A stretch of 39,861 nucleotides of DNA, taken from assembly GCA_025057415.1 (NCBI GenBank), contig JANWXI010000016.1:1-39861 (forward strand), read 5' to 3'. Below the pieces are notes generated by a model. That model searched no databases. It saw only the letters and a list, made by a program, of their open reading frames with translations, and was not told the DNA's origin. A program made the position numbers and the translations under genes. This document shows positions 1 to 9,130 of the stretch, piece after piece (within the stretch, counting starts at the first letter, position 1; each line of letters starts with the position of its first letter). This DNA is from Chitinophagales bacterium. Lineage in GTDB: Bacteria > Bacteroidota > Bacteroidia > Chitinophagales > LD1.

Positions 1-2912
1 GAAATGTATTGATTTGCATCTTCTTTACCGCGGTTTGCATTTGTCCATCCGGCGGGTATCACTATCACCCACAGCCCTGCCCAATCATAATAGTAGCGCT
101 TAATATCGCGGCCGCGTAAGATGGGCTTGATAATGGCTTCGGTGCGTTTTCTCTCCTCTTTATCCTTACAATTTGCCAGAATTTCATTGCGCTTTTCGGT
201 GCTGATAATAAAGGCCTCGTTCAGGCCGGTTAAAATTCCTCTATAAATATTCACATCCCAATCCTTCAGGGGTTTGCCAAGGCGTTCTATTTTTTCTTTC
301 AGGCGCTGCTCGGCACTGCTGCCAATAAACCATGCCTCAACGGTGAGCTTTTCCAATACCACGGCATTTTGCTGCATGTACTCTTCTATCTTCATCTCTT
401 CTTTGCCGTGTCGGGTAAGGGTCACTGCTTTCAACGGCTGCCGGGCAGGGCTGTTCTTTTTTATCAGTAAGATATTCGTATCTACCGTGGCGTTTTCAAA
501 TACGCCGGGCCCTAAATCTATAAGTAGCAAGGGTTCAAATTGTAAAAAGTATTGACGTAGTTTTTCACCATAGCCGGCGCGCATCCATTTGTTGGAGGTG
601 ATATAACACAGCACACCATTGTCTTTGAGCAACTGTATGCCTTTTTCATAAAACAAAACGTAGATATCTCCCGTTCGTACAAAGGTTTCAAAATTGGCAT
701 TTTGATACAAATTAGCCAGCAGGCCACCATCTCTTTGCAACTGTATGTACGGCGGGTTTCCAATCACAATATCAAATCCGCCATTGTCAAACACATCTTT
801 GTACCACACGTGCCATAAGAAGAAGGGCTTATCATCGGTATTTTGGAGGGCTATCAGTTTTTCCTCTATGGTATTCAGTTGTTTCAACTGTTTGTTCCAC
901 GCCTCATATTGTTTATACTCATTCGATTTTTTGTTTAATCGGTCGCGGGAAGAAATTCCGACATCTCTCCACAGCTTTTCTCTGTTCTCAATCTTGTTTT
1001 GTAAATCTCTTCCACATTTTAAAATATAGGCATGAATTTTTCCTTCCAAAAAGTCATTGATTTTTCGCTTTATTTCATCTTTTTCTATGTTCTCTCCCGA
1101 TTGTCTGTTCCAATCGTCAGGGTCAAAATATTGTTTTATCAGTGCGAAAAGCTCTTGTTTGGCGGCTTTGCTGAATACAGTGATTTGTTTGGGTTCAAAT
1201 TCCGCGCCCAGGGTTAATTGTTTTTTTTCTTCTACCATCACCTCATCATCATTCAAGAGGTTTTGCAGGTCTATACCTTCAAAACTTTCCAGCAAGCTGT
1301 TGCCCTGCATGATTTTGTAATCTAAGTTGGGCAGTGGCTGCGGAGTGGGTTCGTCCACCACCAGCGCCAGCCAAAAGCGCAGGCGGGCAATTTCCACGGC
1401 GCCGGTTTCAATGTCCACCCCGTAAATGTTGTTTTGTATGATTTCCTTTTTTACCAGGGCCGGGTCAAACGGTTGGTTTATGTGCAGGTATCCGTAGAGC
1501 AGGCGGCGGCACTCAAAAATTTCTTTCAGTAATCCCATCGGAAAAGCGCCCGAGCCGATGGCAGGGTCGCAGATTTTTACTTCCTGCAAGGCGCGGTTTA
1601 CATCATTGGCGGCTTTGTAACCGGCAAGCGTGGGCGTAACAAAGTTGTTGCGCACCAGTTGCTCAAAATCCTCTACCGCGTATTGCGGCAAACGGGTGTG
1701 CAGGTATGCTATTAAACTTTCGCGGCACATGTAGTGCACAATCTCCTTGGGAGTGTAAAAGGCGCCCTTTTCGCGGTTTTCTTCCAGCAGGTTTTCAAAA
1801 ATGTGGCCCAGCATTTCGGGGTCAATGCCCACTTCGCTGTCGTAAGGGTCGTTTTCGTCAATGGTAAAGTTGTACTGTTCAAAAAAATCGAGCAACTGCC
1901 CCATCAGTTCGGCAGGGAAATCAATGGCATTTCTATAAGAGATATCCTTATCAAACAAACCGCCGTTCAGGTAAGGAATTTTGATGTGGCTGCCCAGCGC
2001 AGAGGGCGCCAGGTCGTTCTTTCGTTTGGTATTGAGGGTTTCAAAAAAGAGGGTTCTCAGTTCGCGGCTGTGGAATTTTTTCCGGTCAGGGCTGCGCTGA
2101 AAGAGGTTTTGCACAAAGCTTGGGTCGCCACCGCTCCAGTCGTTGCGGTTTGCGGGCACGCCCATCCAGCCCTTTTTTTCCAGAAACTGCAAAAACACTA
2201 AGCGGCCGAGGAGTATTTTCACAAAGTCGCGTATGGGCTTGGCGGCATCGTCCTGCCAGCCCCTTTGCAGGGCTTTGTCGCTGCCGAGAAACAGTTTGCG
2301 GTACGTCTTGTTCTCAGCCAGGTGGTCACAGAATTTTTCAAAGTGCGCTTTGTATTGTTGGAAAAATTCTTTGTTGAGTTTTTCAACGGAGAAGGCATCA
2401 AAGAGGTCGTTAAGGTGTATGTCCTTGCCTTTCAGTTTTTCAAAACGCTCGGCAGCGGTGCGTACACTCTCTCCGGGGCCCAACACGTAAGTATAGCGCT
2501 TGGGCTCGGTTTGTACCGGTTGGAAATTTCCGTCGGCATCAAATCCCGTTAGCTCAGATACATAGCTGAAGCGCCACATGGGTTGGCCTGCCTGATAAAA
2601 CACAATAAAGGCGCCATCAATATTACGCCAGTGTTTGCGCAGCAGGTTTCTGAGACCTACGCGGTTTCGTTCCAGCACAATTCCGGGCTGCAACTGTACT
2701 TCGTACACGGCTACGGAGCGCTCAGTACCATCTTCATTTAATATAATATTGCCCAATTGATAAGCCCTTGTAGCTATTTCGTGGTTCATTTCGTTGATTG
2801 GTTGCGGCCGTTCAAAAAGTTGCGCTCCCGGAAAGATTTCGGCTAAAAAGGATATCCAACTCCTTTGGCTGTAGGTGGTGTTAAAAAGCTGCTTAATTTG
2901 TTCCCGTGTCAT
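1..2912 (-). CDS. Eco57I/TaqI-like adenine-specific DNA methyltransferase (putative type IIG restriction-modification enzyme), 3' end cut by window
   Basis: One reading frame stays open from an ATG at 2912-2910 to the left edge, about 970 codons, so the C-terminus is missing. I checked the frame at several points and saw no stop or shift. Residues 449-457 read DPAIGSGAF (SAM-binding motif I) and residues 719-722 read NPPY (catalytic motif IV of N6-adenine methyltransferases). Near residues 932-942 the sequence ILRGRDIKRY is typical of the region joining the methylase to a TaqI-type target-recognition domain. A roughly 400-residue N-terminal region precedes the methylase. It contains YEVQL and a WRFSY stretch that could be a degenerate or atypical nuclease fold; this is inference. 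Established family role: sequence-specific adenine methylation, often with restriction in the same chain. It is the last gene of a three-gene co-directional set with the AlbA_2 protein and the PLD-helicase, separated from them by 150 bp of repeats. Confidence 0.85.
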   Translation of the reverse strand, partial: MTREQIKQLFNTTYSQRSWISFLAEIFPGAQLFERPQPINEMNHEIATRAYQLGNIILNEDGTERSVAVYEVQLQPGIVLERNRVGLRNLLRKHWRNIDGAFIVFYQAGQPMWRFSYVSELTGFDADGNFQPVQTEPKRYTYVLGPGESVRTAAERFEKLKGKDIHLNDLFDAFSVEKLNKEFFQQYKAHFEKFCDHLAENKTYRKLFLGSDKALQRGWQDDAAKPIRDFVKILLGRLVFLQFLEKKGWMGVPANRNDWSGGDPSFVQNLFQRSPDRKKFHSRELRTLFFETLNTKRKNDLAPSALGSHIKIPYLNGGLFDKDISYRNAIDFPAELMGQLLDFFEQYNFTIDENDPYDSEVGIDPEMLGHIFENLLEENREKGAFYTPKEIVHYMCRESLIAYLHTRLPQYAVEDFEQLVRNNFVTPTLAGYKAANDVNRALQEVKICDPAIGSGAFPMGLLKEIFECRRLLYGYLHINQPFDPALVKKEIIQNNIYGVDIETGAVEIARLRFWLALVVDEPTPQPLPNLDYKIMQGNSLLESFEGIDLQNLLNDDEVMVEEKKQLTLGAEFEPKQITVFSKAAKQELFALIKQYFDPDDWNRQSGENIEKDEIKRKINDFLEGKIHAYILKCGRDLQNKIENREKLWRDVGISSRDRLNKKSNEYKQYEAWNKQLKQLNTIEEKLIALQNTDDKPFFLWHVWYKDVFDNGGFDIVIGNPPYIQLQRDGGLLANLYQNANFETFVRTGDIYVLFYEKGIQLLKDNGVLCYITSNKWMRAGYGEKLRQYFLQFEPLLLIDLGPGVFENATVDTNILLIKKNSPARQPLKAVTLTRHGKEEMKIEEYMQQNAVVLEKLTVEAWFIGSSAEQRLKEKIERLGKPLKDWDVNIYRGILTGLNEAFIISTEKRNEILANCKDKEERKRTEAIIKPILRGRDIKRYYYDWAGLWVIVIPAGWTNANRGKEDANQYI

Positions 2913-2934
2913 CTTTTGGTTTTTTTATTTTTCG

Positions 2935-3071
2935 TTTATTTGACAAAGGCGCCATTTTTTCCCCCCTGTTTTGTCAAATAAAAGTTATTGATAATCAGCA
3001 TTTTATGTTTTTTTATTTGACAAATGTCAAAAAAAATAACCCCGATTTCCCCCCAAAATTTGTCAAATAAA
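2935..3071. repeat. Duplicated inverted-repeat element between the AlbA_2 gene and the methyltransferase gene
   Basis: The 13-mer TTTATTTGACAAA occurs at 2935-2947 and 3012-3024, and its exact reverse complement at 2970-2982 and 3059-3071. This makes two dyads with 22- and 34-nt spacers. On the minus strand each dyad starts with the 13-mer, then 3-4 nt, then a run of six G and AAA, so the two units look like diverged copies. TTTGACA-AA-TGTCAAA (3016-3031) is a further near-perfect palindrome inside one unit. The right-most arm overlaps the TGA stop of the AlbA_2 gene. An operator, an attenuator or a small mobile repeat are all possible. Confidence 0.8.
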
Positions 3072-4694
3072 ATATATCCGATCTCTTGTTATTCCTTTAG
3101 ATTGTATTTTGCCTGATTTGGACAAAAGGATCAGCACCCTTCTTAATTTTCTTAATGGAATTTCTTTACCGATTCTTTCATGGATTTGTTTGCTGGAGCT
3201 CCTGCCAAATCTTTCCAAATCGGTTATAACTAACGCTTCCAGTCGGTGGTATTCAATATGCTTTAAACTTGTTTTTTTAAGATTTTCTGTCTTAGTAAGG
3301 TATTCGGGATTAATAAAATACTCTGTTCCTTTTGTTCTCCCTTTGGTTTTTACGATGTTGAGCTCCAATAACTTGCCCAGCCAGTTTTTTATTTGCTTAT
3401 CGTTATGGGTTTGCAAAATGGACGAAAACTCAGTGGCTAAAATAGATTGATGTTGGGCGATAATGCCCAGGCAAATAATTTCTTTTTGGGTCAGGTAAAA
3501 ATGCTTTTTCATCTCTTCTATAAACCGTATAATGTCCACCGACTTGATTTGCTTGTGCAGGGTAACCGTTACACGGTCATTACCTTCTTCTACCTCAGGT
3601 ACGGCTTTGGCTTCGGAAGATTGGATTTCATACATTTTGTCGTAACCGCTTCCTTCGCGCTCCATCAGCCCGAGGTCATAAAAGATTTTTGTGAGGTGTT
3701 CGTTTCTTTTTACCGATTGATGCAGGATATTGTGAGGCGTAACGCCCAAAGGCAAAAGACCCGGATTGTGAATTTCCAAACGGTCAGGGTATAAGTTAAT
3801 GAAAATATCTCCCCGTGTGGTGTATGGGCGATGCACAAGCGCATTGGCCAAAAGTTCTCTCACAACATTTTCGTTGTAATGATAAATGATACGTCTGCCC
3901 AAAATCCCTTCCGATATTTCAACGCCTTCTTTCCACTCGGGAATTTTATTCCAAATGTCTTCAATCAATTCTTTAGGATTCATTGAGAAGTCATCCCAAA
4001 CTTCTTTGCGCACTTTTCTGTGCTGTTCGTCATATTTAATAAACTGCACTATCGGGGCGTACAGTAAATTGGCTCGCTGATCTCTTTTGCCTGTCCATAG
4101 CACGCCTAAATTGGTAAGGAAGGGGCCATTTGTAAGAAAGTAATACGACAACTGTTCTTCATCCGATTTTTCCTTGATAAAAGGGCTGACGCGTGGTGAC
4201 TGCCGGATATCTGTCAGGAACTGGTTCAATTTCATTTGGTCGCACTGGTCAATTCTGATTTTTTGAACCACTTTGGTTTCCCACACGTAGGCCGGCTTAT
4301 CGGTAAATAGTCGGCTCAATTCATCGGGAAGTACGGGTTTGCAATGATCGGCTATACGTATGTAATACTGTCCGTCGGTAGTAGATGCGATGGTGGACTG
4401 AGAAGGCAGCACTTCAATTTTTATCCATTCTCCCCGGTTGTTTGCTTTTTCCTTGCTTACTTTTACCGCAACATTTATACAAAGTTCACTGATGCGTTTA
4501 CGAATGGTTTCCGGTAAATCATCAGGTATGATTTGATCGGTCGGGGGCAAATCCCGGTTATTCTCTATTCCGATAGCAATAATGCCCCCTCTTGCATTAG
4601 CCAGGCAGACGCAGTCCCTGGCTAATTCCCGCCAATCGGGATTTTTGCTTAATAGCGTTTGCAGCGATTTTTTTTCAAAAATCTGATTTTCCAT
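3063..4694 (-). CDS. AlbA_2 (Schlafen-type) / HATPase domain protein, putative regulator of the defence module
   Basis: This 543-residue protein resembles the 'divergent AAA / AlbA_2' predicted transcriptional regulators (COG2865 type). The N-terminal AlbA_2 domain carries LANARGGIIAIGIEN at 31-45. A GHKL/HATPase_c_4-like region follows, with RELLANALVH (E280, N284), IHNPG at 308-312 and a glycine-rich GLMEREGSG near 342-350. The C-terminal 150 residues look like winged-helix DNA-binding domains. Such proteins recur in defence islands; their biochemical role is poorly known and could be regulation, nucleic-acid binding or a Schlafen-like effector. The ATG at 4694 lies 2 nt after the stop of the upstream helicase gene, so the two are almost certainly co-transcribed and probably translationally coupled. 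The stop codon falls inside the inverted-repeat element described at 2935-3071. Confidence 0.82.
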   Translation of the reverse strand: MENQIFEKKSLQTLLSKNPDWRELARDCVCLANARGGIIAIGIENNRDLPPTDQIIPDDLPETIRKRISELCINVAVKVSKEKANNRGEWIKIEVLPSQSTIASTTDGQYYIRIADHCKPVLPDELSRLFTDKPAYVWETKVVQKIRIDQCDQMKLNQFLTDIRQSPRVSPFIKEKSDEEQLSYYFLTNGPFLTNLGVLWTGKRDQRANLLYAPIVQFIKYDEQHRKVRKEVWDDFSMNPKELIEDIWNKIPEWKEGVEISEGILGRRIIYHYNENVVRELLANALVHRPYTTRGDIFINLYPDRLEIHNPGLLPLGVTPHNILHQSVKRNEHLTKIFYDLGLMEREGSGYDKMYEIQSSEAKAVPEVEEGNDRVTVTLHKQIKSVDIIRFIEEMKKHFYLTQKEIICLGIIAQHQSILATEFSSILQTHNDKQIKNWLGKLLELNIVKTKGRTKGTEYFINPEYLTKTENLKKTSLKHIEYHRLEALVITDLERFGRSSSKQIHERIGKEIPLRKLRRVLILLSKSGKIQSKGITRDRIYFI

Positions 4695-4696
4695 AG

Positions 4697-7600
4697 TTAA
4701 ACAAACGATTCTGAAAGAATAATCACAGGCCGGCCTGATGCCGGTTTTAGTGTTTCTTCCATAACAGCGTCTTCTATATCATATTTTTTGACAATTTTTT
4801 CTATTTCGAGCAGAGCGGCCTGCATATTCGGCCTCTTCTTCTGCAGCCTGTCAATTTCGGTTGGCAGGTTGGTATATTTCCCCAGGTCTATTAACTCAAC
4901 CATTTTTCTTATAGTATGGGCTTGTTTGTCTGATAGCCGGGCGTACCGGGTTAAGTCATTGAGGAATTTTTTTGCGCGCTGTGCTACACCGCCTAAGGCC
5001 TCAGGTTCTGACCGGGAAGCCGATAGGGTAATTTCCTGTGTTTCGAAATGATGAATAGCAGCCGACACATGTTCGTAATGGTTATCCGGTAAAGGGCAAG
5101 CCGGTTCATCGGGCTGCGCCTCAAAAATTTTAATGGCTTCAAGCGGGGTGATTTCGTTCGGCTGGTTGCGGCTATCAACCCGGTAAAATTCAAACTTCTG
5201 ATTGTTTTTTAAAAACACGACGGTACTGTTTTGCCATTTCGGTTTTCGTATAGCCGATGCGTTACGTCCTGTTCGTGCTTTCAAAGGAATTTTTTTGATT
5301 TTATCAAACCATTCTTTATTTTCTTTTCTGAAATTACGAAGGTAGTGCAGGTATTTCAGCCGTTCGTCTTCTTCTTCCTTAATGGCATCTGCATTGAACA
5401 GTTTCGCTTCATCCAAAATTTCCTGCTCGGAATACACCTGGTTGTCTTCACCAAATGCGGTGTGGAATGCCTGTATTTTCATTAAGGCAGTACGGTTTAA
5501 CCTGAGTTCGTTATCGCCCTGCGCTGACGGGTAAAACACATAGTTGTAAATTTCTTCGGCCCGGGTACCGATTCGGTTTACCCTTCCTATCCGTTGCATT
5601 AATCGGGTGGAATTCCAGGGTGTGTCGTAGTGTACAATTACATTGGAGCGGTGAAGGTTTACGCCTTCGGCTAACACTTCGGTGGTTATAAGAATATTGT
5701 AATCATTTCGCTGAGCTTCTTTTTTAACATTCGCATCAAAATTGGCAAGTATCTTTTCATAAAGTTCTTCTCGATTTTCTGCAGAAACGATAAGCACATC
5801 TTTTCTGCCTTTTTCTTTCAGTTTGGCCTGTAAATAGTTGACCGTTTCTTTTGATTCGGAGAAAATGACCAGTTTACCCTCCCGATTGGTTTCCTTATTC
5901 AGAAATTTACTGTTGAGGTGGTCCATAAATACGTTCAGTTTCGGGTCATAGTCAATGTTGTTCCAGGCATTCATCAGTTCGTCAATCAGTTCTTTGTCAC
6001 GTTTTAGCGATTCGATAAACTCCGGTTTAAAATCTGTGGCTTTAAAGGTTTTGTTTTTAGGGTTATTCTCGCTGAGTCGTTCAATTTCTTTTTCAATTTC
6101 TTCTTCACTCCAGCCCTTGTCTAAAAGTTTGTTTACATCAGTATCGGGCGCAATGAACACTTTATCATTTTCGAACATTTCAATCATTCGGTGGGTGGCT
6201 TTTTGGAAGTTTTCCAACGTCTTTTTGAAAGCATAAAAGCTGCTTTCCAGTCGTTTTATCAGTTGGGTTTTCATGATAAAGGCCAAAGATTTAGAAACCA
6301 ATTCCGCATTTTCATACAGCCCGTTTGCCACTTCGGGTTTCAAGCCGGCTATTGCCTGATAGCGGGCGTACGAGATTTTGTCTTCATCTATCAGATACGA
6401 AACCGTTCTGTGAAACAGTTCGTTGAGTTTCCGGTCTAACACATATTCAATCCTTTGGGGTGGTTGTACCTTGGGAAACCGAATGCCCTGCTCTTTTAAA
6501 TCCTGCAAATACTCAGGAACGTTTTCCAGGTCTTTTCTCGTTCTTCGGATGGTTATCGGCTCAATAACAACACGCCTGATGCGTTGATAAATTTCTCTGA
6601 GCCGTGTGATGTCTAAGGTATCAAATCGTCTGAGTCGTTTGTATTCTTCTATGATGGGTGCGAAAAACGATGTAAGATTGGTTACCGGGAGTGTAGATTG
6701 TCTCACATCCTGAAACATTTGTATCTGGTATAAAATATCTTCCGGTTTGTTATTCAGCGGAGTAGCCGTAACCAATATCACTTTTTTCTGTCGCCCTTCT
6801 ATAAACCCATGATTGGCTCTCGGACTTTTACAAATCAGTTGTAAATTCTGGAATGCTTCCGAGGTATGATTTCTGAATTTATGCGCCTCGTCAACAATAA
6901 CCAAGTCGTATTCCTCTTTGTTCCAATAGTCGGTGTGGCCTTCTGTTATTTTTCTTAAACTGCCGTTTGTAATAAACTTGGCGTATTTATCAATTTGGAA
7001 ATACCTGAATGTGTTTTTCCAGTTTTTCTCAACGGCAGGTGGATACACTACTAATATTTTGGTGCGGTCTTTGCCGTTTTGCACTATAAACTTTTTGGCG
7101 ACCATAGTGGCAATGACCGTTTTCCCCAGTCCTACTACATCAGCCAGCACAAAACCGTTGTGATTGAGCAGCATATTAAATCCTTCATTTACTGCGTCAA
7201 TCTGATAGGATAGTTTTTTGAAATTTTGAGGCAAATCACCAATAGAGTCCGGGTCGTAATCTATACTTTTACCGAAGTATTCTATCAGCAATTTGATGTA
7301 AAGCTCATAAGGTGTAAAGGTTTGTCCGATATGCGTTTTTTGTTTGAACTGCTGAATGTCGGCCGGTAAAATAGGGGTGGATTCTTCCCACAGTTTTTCA
7401 AATTCCTGTTTGGCAAAGTGCACATCGTCATAATCCTTCAAAGCAATGTTCAGTTCGTAATTGGGCGATTGTTTGATACCGAGTCCTGCTTCGGTGAGGT
7501 TAGACGAGCCCATAATCACCCAACCGTCTGAGTGCGGGCTGTGATGTTCGGGCAGAAACAGATAAAATTTTGCATGAAGTGTTTTAGAAGTGTGCGCCCT

Positions 7601-7969
7601 TACCTCAATGCGCCCGTCAATCAAATCCTGTACAAACTGCAGAATACCGTCTTCCACTTCTTTAGCGTATTTTGCTTCGCGGATATCCTGCACAAACCAG
7701 TTCAGAAATTCTTCTTTGGTTTTTATAGCATCACCAAAGAACATAAGCCCTTTGCGGTGCGCTTCGGCAAACATTTGATCTACATTAATGCCCACCAGAA
7801 TTTTAATTTGTTTCACATTCTTCAGATAGGGCTGCAGAGCAAAGTACCCTGAAGAACGGAAATAAGCGACTACGGCATAAAAGGCATACAGCCCCTTCAT
7901 GTTTTCGATGATGCCGCAAAACTTATCAAACAGATTTCGCTGGTTGTTATTGAAAAATTTAGATGACAT
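4697..7969 (-). CDS. Fused phospholipase D-like nuclease and SNF2/SF2 helicase, defence-associated
   Basis: The protein has 1090 residues. The N-terminal PLD-like (HKD nuclease) domain has LHAKFYLF with H132 and K134, followed by GSSNLTEAGL at 154-163. The canonical Asp of HxKx4D is not in its usual place, as is common in nuclease-type PLD proteins. The helicase has Walker A DVVGLGKT (277-284), DEAH (360-363), TATPLNN (401-407), motif V TTEVLAEGVNLH (762-773) and motif VI QRIGRVNRIG (792-801). A long C-terminal extension has no assignable domain. The family is ATP-driven DNA translocation coupled to cleavage, as in NgoFVII-like and DISARM-associated proteins (DrmC PLD, DrmD SNF2, separate there). 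It is the first gene of a minus-strand operon with the AlbA_2 gene and the methyltransferase. The region reads AT-richer than the pcrA gene on its other side, which fits acquisition by transfer; I did not compute this. Confidence 0.9.
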   Translation of the reverse strand: MSSKFFNNNQRNLFDKFCGIIENMKGLYAFYAVVAYFRSSGYFALQPYLKNVKQIKILVGINVDQMFAEAHRKGLMFFGDAIKTKEEFLNWFVQDIREAKYAKEVEDGILQFVQDLIDGRIEVRAHTSKTLHAKFYLFLPEHHSPHSDGWVIMGSSNLTEAGLGIKQSPNYELNIALKDYDDVHFAKQEFEKLWEESTPILPADIQQFKQKTHIGQTFTPYELYIKLLIEYFGKSIDYDPDSIGDLPQNFKKLSYQIDAVNEGFNMLLNHNGFVLADVVGLGKTVIATMVAKKFIVQNGKDRTKILVVYPPAVEKNWKNTFRYFQIDKYAKFITNGSLRKITEGHTDYWNKEEYDLVIVDEAHKFRNHTSEAFQNLQLICKSPRANHGFIEGRQKKVILVTATPLNNKPEDILYQIQMFQDVRQSTLPVTNLTSFFAPIIEEYKRLRRFDTLDITRLREIYQRIRRVVIEPITIRRTRKDLENVPEYLQDLKEQGIRFPKVQPPQRIEYVLDRKLNELFHRTVSYLIDEDKISYARYQAIAGLKPEVANGLYENAELVSKSLAFIMKTQLIKRLESSFYAFKKTLENFQKATHRMIEMFENDKVFIAPDTDVNKLLDKGWSEEEIEKEIERLSENNPKNKTFKATDFKPEFIESLKRDKELIDELMNAWNNIDYDPKLNVFMDHLNSKFLNKETNREGKLVIFSESKETVNYLQAKLKEKGRKDVLIVSAENREELYEKILANFDANVKKEAQRNDYNILITTEVLAEGVNLHRSNVIVHYDTPWNSTRLMQRIGRVNRIGTRAEEIYNYVFYPSAQGDNELRLNRTALMKIQAFHTAFGEDNQVYSEQEILDEAKLFNADAIKEEEDERLKYLHYLRNFRKENKEWFDKIKKIPLKARTGRNASAIRKPKWQNSTVVFLKNNQKFEFYRVDSRNQPNEITPLEAIKIFEAQPDEPACPLPDNHYEHVSAAIHHFETQEITLSASRSEPEALGGVAQRAKKFLNDLTRYARLSDKQAHTIRKMVELIDLGKYTNLPTEIDRLQKKRPNMQAALLEIEKIVKKYDIEDAVMEETLKPASGRPVIILSESFV

Positions 7970-8329
7970 AATCTTTAGGGGGAGTTACATAAAAATTAAA
8001 TATATGATTAAAAAAAATTTTAGCGCGTTCTCCGTAATGAAAAACCTTTCGCTTTGCTGGCAAATTGAATATGTTTTCAGGAATAACACGCATTAGCTTA
8101 TTGCCATTTATCTCAAAAATACATCCATCACATTCGGATACAAACCTGTACCACAGCATCTGAGGAGTTTTTTTGGCAGCGCCCGCATCATGCTGTGCGC
8201 TTTTTGGAAATTATTACAGTTGTGATGTACGGCTATGTTTCGCCCCTTACAATTGCAAACAGGCGCCGGTTGTAATGACATCACACCGGGGTACATCTGC
8301 CGCAACAATCAAGTTCCGTACGGTTATTA
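7970..8329. other. Intergenic region upstream of the defence operon; no gene supported
   Basis: This 360-nt stretch lies between the MtfA-like gene and the helicase gene, both on the minus strand. It must hold the promoter of the defence operon, but I see no convincing paired TTG/TAnnTTTG site. The 80 nt next to the helicase start are very AT-rich. A 66-codon minus-strand frame (7959-8159) overlaps the helicase start by 11 nt; it has no recognisable domain and I do not call it a gene. Confidence 0.6.
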
Positions 8330-9130
8330 CTAATTTTTTCTTATCCGTCTCCAACGCTCAGCCATATCCTGCAGCAATAGTTTGCGCATCAAATTGTACA
8401 ACTCCGGGTGTTCTACCTCAAACCTGAGTGGTGACTCAAAGAAAATTTCCACGCAGCAAGCCCAAAATTCCTGGTCGTCTGTGAAGGCGTAATCCCTGAA
8501 CAGAGGGTCGCTTTCCGGTGTGTTTTGCCGGATGGTTTGGCGGTGCAGGCGAAGTTTCAGCAGCGCTATATCAGTAAAATCGCTGTTGAGGTATTGCATG
8601 TAGGTCCACAGGGAGTGTGACAATTCATGCAGGCCCAGATTAATGCCATCGGTAGCCGAGGCATAACCCTTGCAGAAATCGGGCCAGGAGAGCATGAGTG
8701 TGTGTGAGTCAATACTCAGCCCTTTTACTTGTACCTGCAGGCGCTTTGAGAAAAAAGGACCCGGATACAGATATATCGCTACCAAACGCGGCAAACTGTA
8801 TTGGCTATAACCGAAAGTCAGTTGTGCCAGGGCTGCGCAAACGAGCACCTTCATTTGGGGGGTTATTTTCAACCCCTCCCGTCCTACAAACAATTTGTTT
8901 TTCGTAAGATAAAATACGCGGTACAGAAATTCCTCCTGTTCGTGCGGTAAGAGCAAGAGGTAAAAACCCATGTGCTGCAATTCGTTGCGGCACAAGTCAA
9001 AATCGCCACGATACACCCACCGCAGGTATCTGCGCAATATCGGAGCGCGTATGTTTGCCGAAACCAACAGAATCCGATGTAACCCTGCCAAAACAATCCC
9101 TACGAGCAGGAATATGATGATGTAAATCAC
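8330..9130 (-). CDS. MtfA-like zinc metallopeptidase (peptidase family M90)
   Basis: This is a 266-residue protein with one hydrophobic N-terminal segment (about residues 2-16) followed by a soluble domain. The zinc site HELSH (168-172, HExxH) and EFWACCVEIFF (221-231) match the two signature motifs of the glucose-regulated metallopeptidase / MtfA family, where a downstream Glu completes the metal site. In Enterobacteria MtfA binds the glucose regulator Mlc and acts as an aminopeptidase; that partner is not expected in Bacteroidota, so only the peptidase role carries over. The N-terminal segment suggests a membrane-anchored form. It is divergent from pcrA with only 79 nt between the start codons, so the promoters must lie in that short gap. 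Confidence 0.8.
   Translation of the reverse strand: MIYIIIFLLVGIVLAGLHRILLVSANIRAPILRRYLRWVYRGDFDLCRNELQHMGFYLLLLPHEQEEFLYRVFYLTKNKLFVGREGLKITPQMKVLVCAALAQLTFGYSQYSLPRLVAIYLYPGPFFSKRLQVQVKGLSIDSHTLMLSWPDFCKGYASATDGINLGLHELSHSLWTYMQYLNSDFTDIALLKLRLHRQTIRQNTPESDPLFRDYAFTDDQEFWACCVEIFFESPLRFEVEHPELYNLMRKLLLQDMAERWRRIRKN

Follow-up and report, generated by a model that had tools for sequence, protein, structure and literature searches.

The 39,861-nt stretch analyzed here (the window) is an entire contig (JANWXI010000016.1; G000:C77:1-39861) of the Chitinophagales bacterium genome GCA_025057415.1 (G000; 196 contigs, 93.85% complete, 3.22 Mb), and it begins with three genes encoding a methyltransferase, a protein with an SLFN_AlbA_2 domain (hereafter AlbA_2) and a helicase with an HKD nuclease domain. 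The helicase and methyltransferase genes form a conserved two-gene core, and the trio is not one fixed system. The core is likely to be an ATP-dependent restriction-modification system of two proteins, accompanied in the window by the AlbA_2 gene as an accessory with a putative operator array. The features of the locus are as follows.

4697-7969, minus strand: HKD(PLD)-SNF2 helicase-nuclease, 1090 amino acids (aa), the putative restriction (R) component
7499-7576, minus strand: HKD nuclease motif H132-x-K134 ... GSSN157 of the helicase
3063-4694, minus strand: SLFN_AlbA_2 + HATPase_c_4 protein, 543 aa, the embedded accessory gene
3-2912, minus strand: Eco57I-type N6-adenine methyltransferase (M), 970 aa, open at the contig end
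2936-3070, both orientations: four-site TTATTTGACAAA array lying between AlbA_2 and the methyltransferase gene
2936-2947, plus strand: TTATTTGACAAA site 1
2970-2981, minus strand: TTATTTGACAAA site 2
3013-3024, plus strand: TTATTTGACAAA site 3
3059-3070, minus strand: TTATTTGACAAA site 4, overlapping the end of the AlbA_2 gene
7970-8329, minus strand: intergenic region upstream of the operon
8330-9130: Peptidase_M90 gene, the next gene outside the operon, not counted as a system member

All three genes are genuine and make up a single operon: they lie on the minus strand and run in operon-like order toward the contig end at window position 1, with gaps of 2 nt (helicase to AlbA_2) and 150 nt (AlbA_2 to methyltransferase). 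Open reading frames (ORFs) and Pfam confirmed the coordinates, the 2-nt gap and the domain content given in an original prediction made from the letters alone, and its remark that the first two genes point at the methyltransferase holds in the sense of a shared strand and operon order. Pfam placed PLDc_2, SNF2-rel_dom and Helicase_C within the single helicase chain, SLFN_AlbA_2 plus HATPase_c_4 in the AlbA_2 protein, and Eco57I and N6_Mtase in the methyltransferase. In PADLOC the best match for the helicase was C3a139 'HKD+Snf2' (153 bits), followed by DrmD (133) and HmaA (111); the AlbA_2 protein gave weak matches only, and in PADLOC 2.0.0 neither it nor four relatives matched a PDC (candidate-defence) family. 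The best match for the methyltransferase was REase_MTase_IIG (516 bits), in line with the earlier label 'type IIG-like', although the N-terminal region has no clear nuclease motif. A search with a full-length relative did not find the missing part of the methyltransferase elsewhere in the genome.

The evidence for a two-gene core comes from two samples. A helicase scan of genome contigs gave 61 loci other than the window's, 48 of which were countable, that is, reached the C-terminus of the helicase and 1.5 kb or more beyond it; 13 were set aside for contig ends or a cut helicase gene, and the methyltransferase start was visible in 5 of these. A methyltransferase relative lay within 2.5 kb downstream on the same strand in all 48 countable loci. 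In a separate order-wide sample, 298 genomes searched with the helicase at 1e-100, ten matched, the window's own among them; among the other nine, the methyltransferase was present in all eight with downstream sequence (272-1166 bits), the ninth being cut by a contig end. The helicase tree (a quick method, with some long branches) intermingled Bacteroidota, Balneolota, Chlorobiota, a Roizmanbacteria bin and others, while Cyanobacteriota formed one group. The mixed phyla suggest transfer, although bins can contain foreign contigs.

Other genes were seen around the pair. An SMC/AAA-type ATPase gene (519-689 aa) stood behind the methyltransferase in 9 of the 61 loci (L049, L052, L055, L065, L070, L072, L076, L077 and L082), with relatives in three of the eight order-sample loci (L143, L144 and L145). 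A small gene (92-99 aa), named XRE-like helix-turn-helix by eye, ended at or next to the helicase start in L072, L075, L077, L140, L143 and L145 and is a possible operon regulator. L049 also had a second, distant HKD-SNF2-like gene on the opposite strand (L049:18747-21944, minus; 1065 aa, 24% identity over part).

Both partners retain their predicted catalytic residues. Invariant positions were H132, K134, G154-SSN157, E172, Walker A G280-T284, D360, E361 and H363 in an alignment of 51 helicases, and DPAxGSG (449-455) and NPP (719-721) in 40 methyltransferases. The latter showed no conserved E-x-K at the N-terminus (E71 in 31 of 40, position 73 mostly T, E or N, with K in 2), and an AlphaFold model of that region (mean predicted local distance difference test, pLDDT, 78.7) had no meaningful PDB match, which leaves the HKD domain as the probable nuclease. 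A model of the helicase C-terminus (mean pLDDT 73.6) likewise had no meaningful PDB match. The full-length methyltransferase relative in Raineya orbicola (L046) carries a C-terminal TaqI_C specificity domain in the same chain.

We then considered close pairs of loci. Fifteen were compared, and five were left out because one partner's methyltransferase was incomplete or broken in the decisive region. In the remaining ten, the helicases were 91.9-98.5% identical and the first ~600 aa of the methyltransferases 84-100% identical (exceptions being one 150-aa block of L070/L073 at 64%, and L028, which lacks the first ~140 residues), whereas the methyltransferase region ~750-1050 was mostly 17-38% identical (in L037/L039 the drop begins 150 residues later). 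Since the recognition domain is swapped while the helicase stays constant, the helicase most likely gets its specificity from the methyltransferase. A resolvase-family gene followed the methyltransferase in five loci (Resolvase confirmed in four), and in four of these five (L053, L056, L063 and L073) inverted repeats of 24-62 bp linked the methyltransferase to an opposite-strand frame; L057 had the recombinase cluster and no such repeat. Both opposite-strand cassettes scanned (L056 and L073) contained TaqI_C. These cassettes likely serve specificity switching in this family.

On the strength of gene content, sequence conservation, co-occurrence, the exchange of recognition domains, the presence of the accessory in other restriction loci and the array statistics, we infer the biochemical activities, the direction of R by the methyltransferase and the function of the array as follows. 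The methyltransferase, with its own target-recognition domain (modification and specificity in one chain), would mark host DNA with N6-methyladenine at the site set by that domain. The HKD-SNF2 protein, in which no specificity domain was detected, would be directed by the methyltransferase to unmethylated sites, move along DNA with ATP and cut with its HKD nuclease. The pair would thus be the functional equivalent of a Type ISP enzyme split in two chains, with HKD replacing the Mrr nuclease. The AlbA_2-GHKL gene would be an embedded accessory in the slot between R and M, and the array right after its stop codon, ahead of the methyltransferase gene, a putative operator array read by the AlbA_2 protein or another regulator. 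In relatives the N-terminal Schlafen domain may be a backup RNase.

Several known enzymes combine similar parts. Type ISP enzymes (LlaGI, LlaBIII) comprise a nuclease, a translocase, a gamma-methyltransferase and a C-terminal recognition domain (PMC3874165). The window pair has the same component set, but all domains lie in one polypeptide there and in two genes in the window and its relatives, which have HKD rather than an Mrr-like nuclease. SauUSI, for which ATP-driven translocation has been shown, joins an HKD nuclease and an SF2 ATPase in one chain (PMC7913695), as the window helicase does, but it has its own domain for recognizing methylated DNA, whereas the window family has a methyltransferase partner in every locus with room. 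CglI and NgoAVII also carry out ATP-dependent restriction with a PLD nuclease (PMC7913695; PMC4267653) but keep nuclease and ATPase as separate proteins, the nuclease chain bearing a B3 recognition domain. In PbeA of the CxC-ABC systems an HKD domain is fused to an SF2 helicase and has been likened to Type I/III restriction components (PMC10853773); its partners are ABC-ATPase and DndE-like proteins, not a methyltransferase of the window type.

The AlbA_2 gene was followed separately in two overlapping samples, phylum and class (395 genomes each), by an AlbA_2-only search at E 1e-60. Outside the window's genome this gave 20 relatives, 15 of them full-length; L110-L114 were excluded (gene cut or N-terminus missing). 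Eight of the 15 lie in type I operons (L104, L105, L106, L107, L109, L132, L133 and L134; the assignment of L105 and L133 is by BLAST to named neighbours). In L138 the AlbA_2 gene overlaps the preceding MmeI-type enzyme gene by 4 bp (L138:6895-11222), and this locus is a third restriction architecture with an AlbA_2 accessory. L108 (L108:4386-13668), where the AlbA_2 gene, accompanied by a second, distant AlbA_2-like gene, is flanked by an Eco57I methylase two genes upstream and by a T5orf172-ResIII helicase on the other side, is possibly another nuclease-helicase-methylase locus. The other five (L103, L135, L136, L137 and L139) had no restriction gene at hand, a judgement based on BLAST against a reference set, the reading frames seen and Pfam scans of one or two ORFs per locus. 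About 8 kb away in L136 lies a fragment of a C-5 cytosine methylase. Among plasmids, 17 records matched AlbA_2 and seven regions were fetched; the four annotated ones comprised one type I operon (Aeromonas) and three regions without annotated restriction genes. In L018 (L018:91-6155) a distant AlbA_2/HATPase gene is followed immediately by an HKD-SNF2 gene and a DUF4357 gene; no methyltransferase follows the HKD-SNF2 gene, and the contig begins just before the AlbA_2 gene. The C-terminus of the AlbA_2 protein is a probable winged helix, judging from weak matches.

The Schlafen domain raises the alternative that AlbA_2 is a tRNA-cutting suicide nuclease that stays latent under the guard of the restriction complex, as PrrC does with EcoprrI, and fires when a phage blocks restriction. 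PrrC itself provides the precedent (PMC3874165), Schlafen-kinase-wHTH (winged helix-turn-helix) proteins have been linked to BREX and BREX-related loci (PMC12839542), and in L147 an AAA_13/PDC-S06 protein with a weaker PADLOC match to PrrC (L147:3190-5460, minus) lies directly behind a helicase-methyltransferase pair. In 17 AlbA_2 sequences, column 2 was E and column 7 was D or E in all 17, and column 45 was D in 16. This spacing of 5/38 matches that of the Schlafen RNase triad. The window copy (E2, E7, N45; codon 4562-4560) is the sole sequence with N at column 45 and so departs from the triad at its third acid. With 5 of 15 relatives also away from restriction genes, we regard this alternative as rather unlikely.

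The array is the other distinctive element. Its four exact TTATTTGACAAA sites alternate in orientation, against 0.57 expected at up to one mismatch, and none of 100 window shuffles reached four; the 3.22-Mb genome holds five exact copies in all, one of them outside the array. The same sites follow AlbA_2 in L132 and L133, type I loci from other families whose AlbA_2 proteins are ~70% identical, and an exact inverted TTATTTGACAAA pair occurred in 2 of 395 class genomes (the window's and that of L132), both times directly behind AlbA_2. Raineya has degenerate copies. Other relatives carry different short repeats at the equivalent place, such as three full TTTATAGAAAC copies and one partial copy, as direct repeats, within 44 bp before hsdR in L104. 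The repeats were rejected as coding sequence, like-oriented window sites being 89 and 77 nt apart; in L133 an 85-aa frame crosses the array, and the same frame meets a stop in L132 (by eye).

Short repeats follow AlbA_2 genes more often than they follow neighbouring genes. The first test used base-content shuffles over 120 bp at 20 AlbA_2 loci (including the window, L046 and three plasmid loci; some are related, namely window/L132/L133 and L157/L159) and 232 controls from the same loci, 101 of them largely non-coding. For K = 7-10, p<=0.02 was reached in 8, 9, 10 and 12 of the 20, against 15, 16, 18 and 16 of the 101 and 25, 31, 29 and 26 of all 232; rank tests against the 101 gave p values of 1.2e-4, 2.5e-6, 4.1e-6 and 2.3e-6. 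Upstream of AlbA_2, window-trained shuffles gave 0, 1 and 0 of 20 (K=8; K=9; K=7, 120 bp). A second test on seven later-fetched loci, excluding L162 and L163 (contigs end inside the gene), gave 3, 2, 3 and 2 of 7 against 6, 4, 4 and 3 of 55 controls (rank tests 0.0011, 1.8e-5, 0.0016 and 0.043). In nine plasmid or viral-contig loci, TTGGNKC sites recur at nearly fixed positions (~+1, ~+101 and ~-33, with -46 in 5 of 9), 3-4 sites being found against 0.08-0.16 expected for a motif derived from these same sequences. Plasmids gave no DNA match to the L132 array and viral contigs none to the 20-base pattern; the pair pattern matched once among viral contigs (L156), with no relative of the three proteins there.

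Could the array work as RNA (hairpins, or a repeat RNA resembling type III antitoxins) and not as protein-binding DNA? Its fold z is -4.19, and Raineya keeps one arm pair (1 mismatch in 12) even though both arms differ from those of the window. Palindromic DNA sites fold as well, however; arm pairing is inconsistent (by eye) across the nine plasmid and viral-contig loci, where the half-sites keep nearly fixed positions, and the L104 repeats are direct, not inverted. Rfam gave a single match, far below the gathering score. An RNA element is thus unlikely, and we prefer the putative operator array. Tentatively, and with less than even confidence, we extend this interpretation: AlbA_2-GHKL with its trailing array may be a portable cassette that settles between the R and M genes of at least three architectures (type I, MmeI-type and the HKD-SNF2 pair, perhaps with a fourth in L108), each copy reading its own co-diverged array to control or guard the host system.

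At the slot itself, helicase and methyltransferase were no more than 40 bp apart in 29 of the 48 countable loci and more than 300 bp apart in the other 19, where Pfam on representatives plus clustering named DUF1016/YhcG (6), Uma2 (3), KilA-N (2), Bro-N, RhuM, PIN and AlbA_2 (1 each); four had no clear gene. One DUF1016/YhcG locus and one KilA-N locus had a second gene of the PDDEXK_3 cluster. The three slot representatives scanned were all PADLOC candidate defence genes: YhcG (PDC-S02), RhuM (PDC-S05) and KilA-N (PDC-S22). Loci whose helicases are nearly identical can differ in the insert: KilA-N is present in L077 but not in L072 (helicase identity 97.0%), YhcG in L028 but not in L026 (96.6%), and Uma2 in L041 but not in L050 (96.6%). 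Two of the eight order-sample loci had an insert, which BLAST assigned to the DUF1016 type in both. AlbA_2 belongs to a set of genes that can replace one another in the slot. Type I and Hma loci likewise harbour accessory genes within their sets of restriction and modification genes, as described for rloA/rloB (PMC2928727), tgvAB (PMC11411939), darTG2 (PMC12255303) and prrC (PMC3874165); here the host differs, being an HKD-SNF2 pair.

These counts bear on the original prediction of a three-gene module, and on the stronger idea of a dedicated three-component defence system in which the helicase is coupled to AlbA_2 as an indispensable sensor or effector. The 2-nt coupling of helicase and AlbA_2, the same gene order with a 75% identical AlbA_2 in Raineya orbicola and the arrangement in L018 would fit the latter. 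Yet AlbA_2 was found in only 1 of the 61 other helicase loci and in none of the eight order-sample loci with room, and more than half of its full-length relatives (8 of 15) belong to type I operons. A dedicated trio is therefore very improbable, and the module claim falls: the constant unit is helicase plus methyltransferase, and across genomes the pair recurs while the trio mostly does not.

The locus was also compared with named multi-gene systems. DISARM, which the original prediction had already set aside, was rejected on two features: a DrmD match of 159.5 bits lies below the cut-off of 610, and PF09369 (DUF1998, DrmB), reported earlier as missing from the window, is absent from the whole 93.85%-complete genome (the control matched in 8 of 14 genomes). 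Canonical type I was rejected since the window proteins match neither Methylase_S (HsdS) nor HsdM_N, and M and TaqI_C form one chain in L046. A BREX identity is without support as far as the locus can be read before the contig end; the sole PglZ match in this genome, the one searched, lies in a 545-aa ORF on another contig (match at G000:C37:3428-4006), whose size and domain fit a PorX-like regulator rather than BREX. It is extremely improbable that the pair belongs to a Type-2 BREX-related (Hma-like) system with its DUF499 gene beyond the contig end: such systems do share an HKD-SNF2 helicase with an N6-methyltransferase, and are reported to have Schlafen-kinase-wHTH neighbours (PMC12839542), but the HmaA match is weak (110.6 bits) and the DUF499 ATPase, with 0 matches in the window's genome, was absent from 35 of the 39 genomes searched, the four positives being counted irrespective of distance to the helicase. 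DUF3780 was found in 0 of 15 genomes, where no control matched either.

Several points weigh against the two-protein restriction-modification system with an AlbA_2 accessory and operator array. The 61-locus scan was built on peptide patterns of the window protein and favours close relatives. The window methyltransferase is without a recognition domain because the contig ends. No close helicase relative was found at 1e-100 in 17 same-genus genomes (best E 3.4e-17), so long retention in the genus is without support. AlbA_2 is not strictly a restriction accessory, given the five relatives away from restriction genes, and N45 argues against RNase activity of the window copy. As for the array, the repeats had already been seen to be general when the tests were set up, and the first test draws on the very loci in which they were seen; the contrast is weaker with window-trained shuffles (K=8, 5/20 against 19/232; K=9, 8/20 against 22/232; K=7, 120 bp, 4/20 against 15/232); the second-test loci all carry the L157/L159 motif type and are partly independent only; the degenerate Raineya array is not significant alone (42 of 200 shuffles); and L105, L134, L137, L139 and L158 have no repeated 10-mers after the AlbA_2 gene. 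The case for phage defence is a comparative one, and on it the defence-like character first proposed for these genes is probably correct.

The family hits and the literature searched (bioRxiv being outside the scope) gave no name for the HKD-SNF2 plus methyltransferase pair. ATP-dependent HKD restriction enzymes and embedded genes are already known, so the pair is a variant and the slot an example; the array is the part that we have not seen described, no literature search having been aimed at it. The recurring pair offers a simple, testable mechanism, and restriction systems of quite different build take up the same accessory genes at an equivalent place. The array behind AlbA_2 provides a direct handle on what the poorly understood Schlafen/GHKL proteins recognize.

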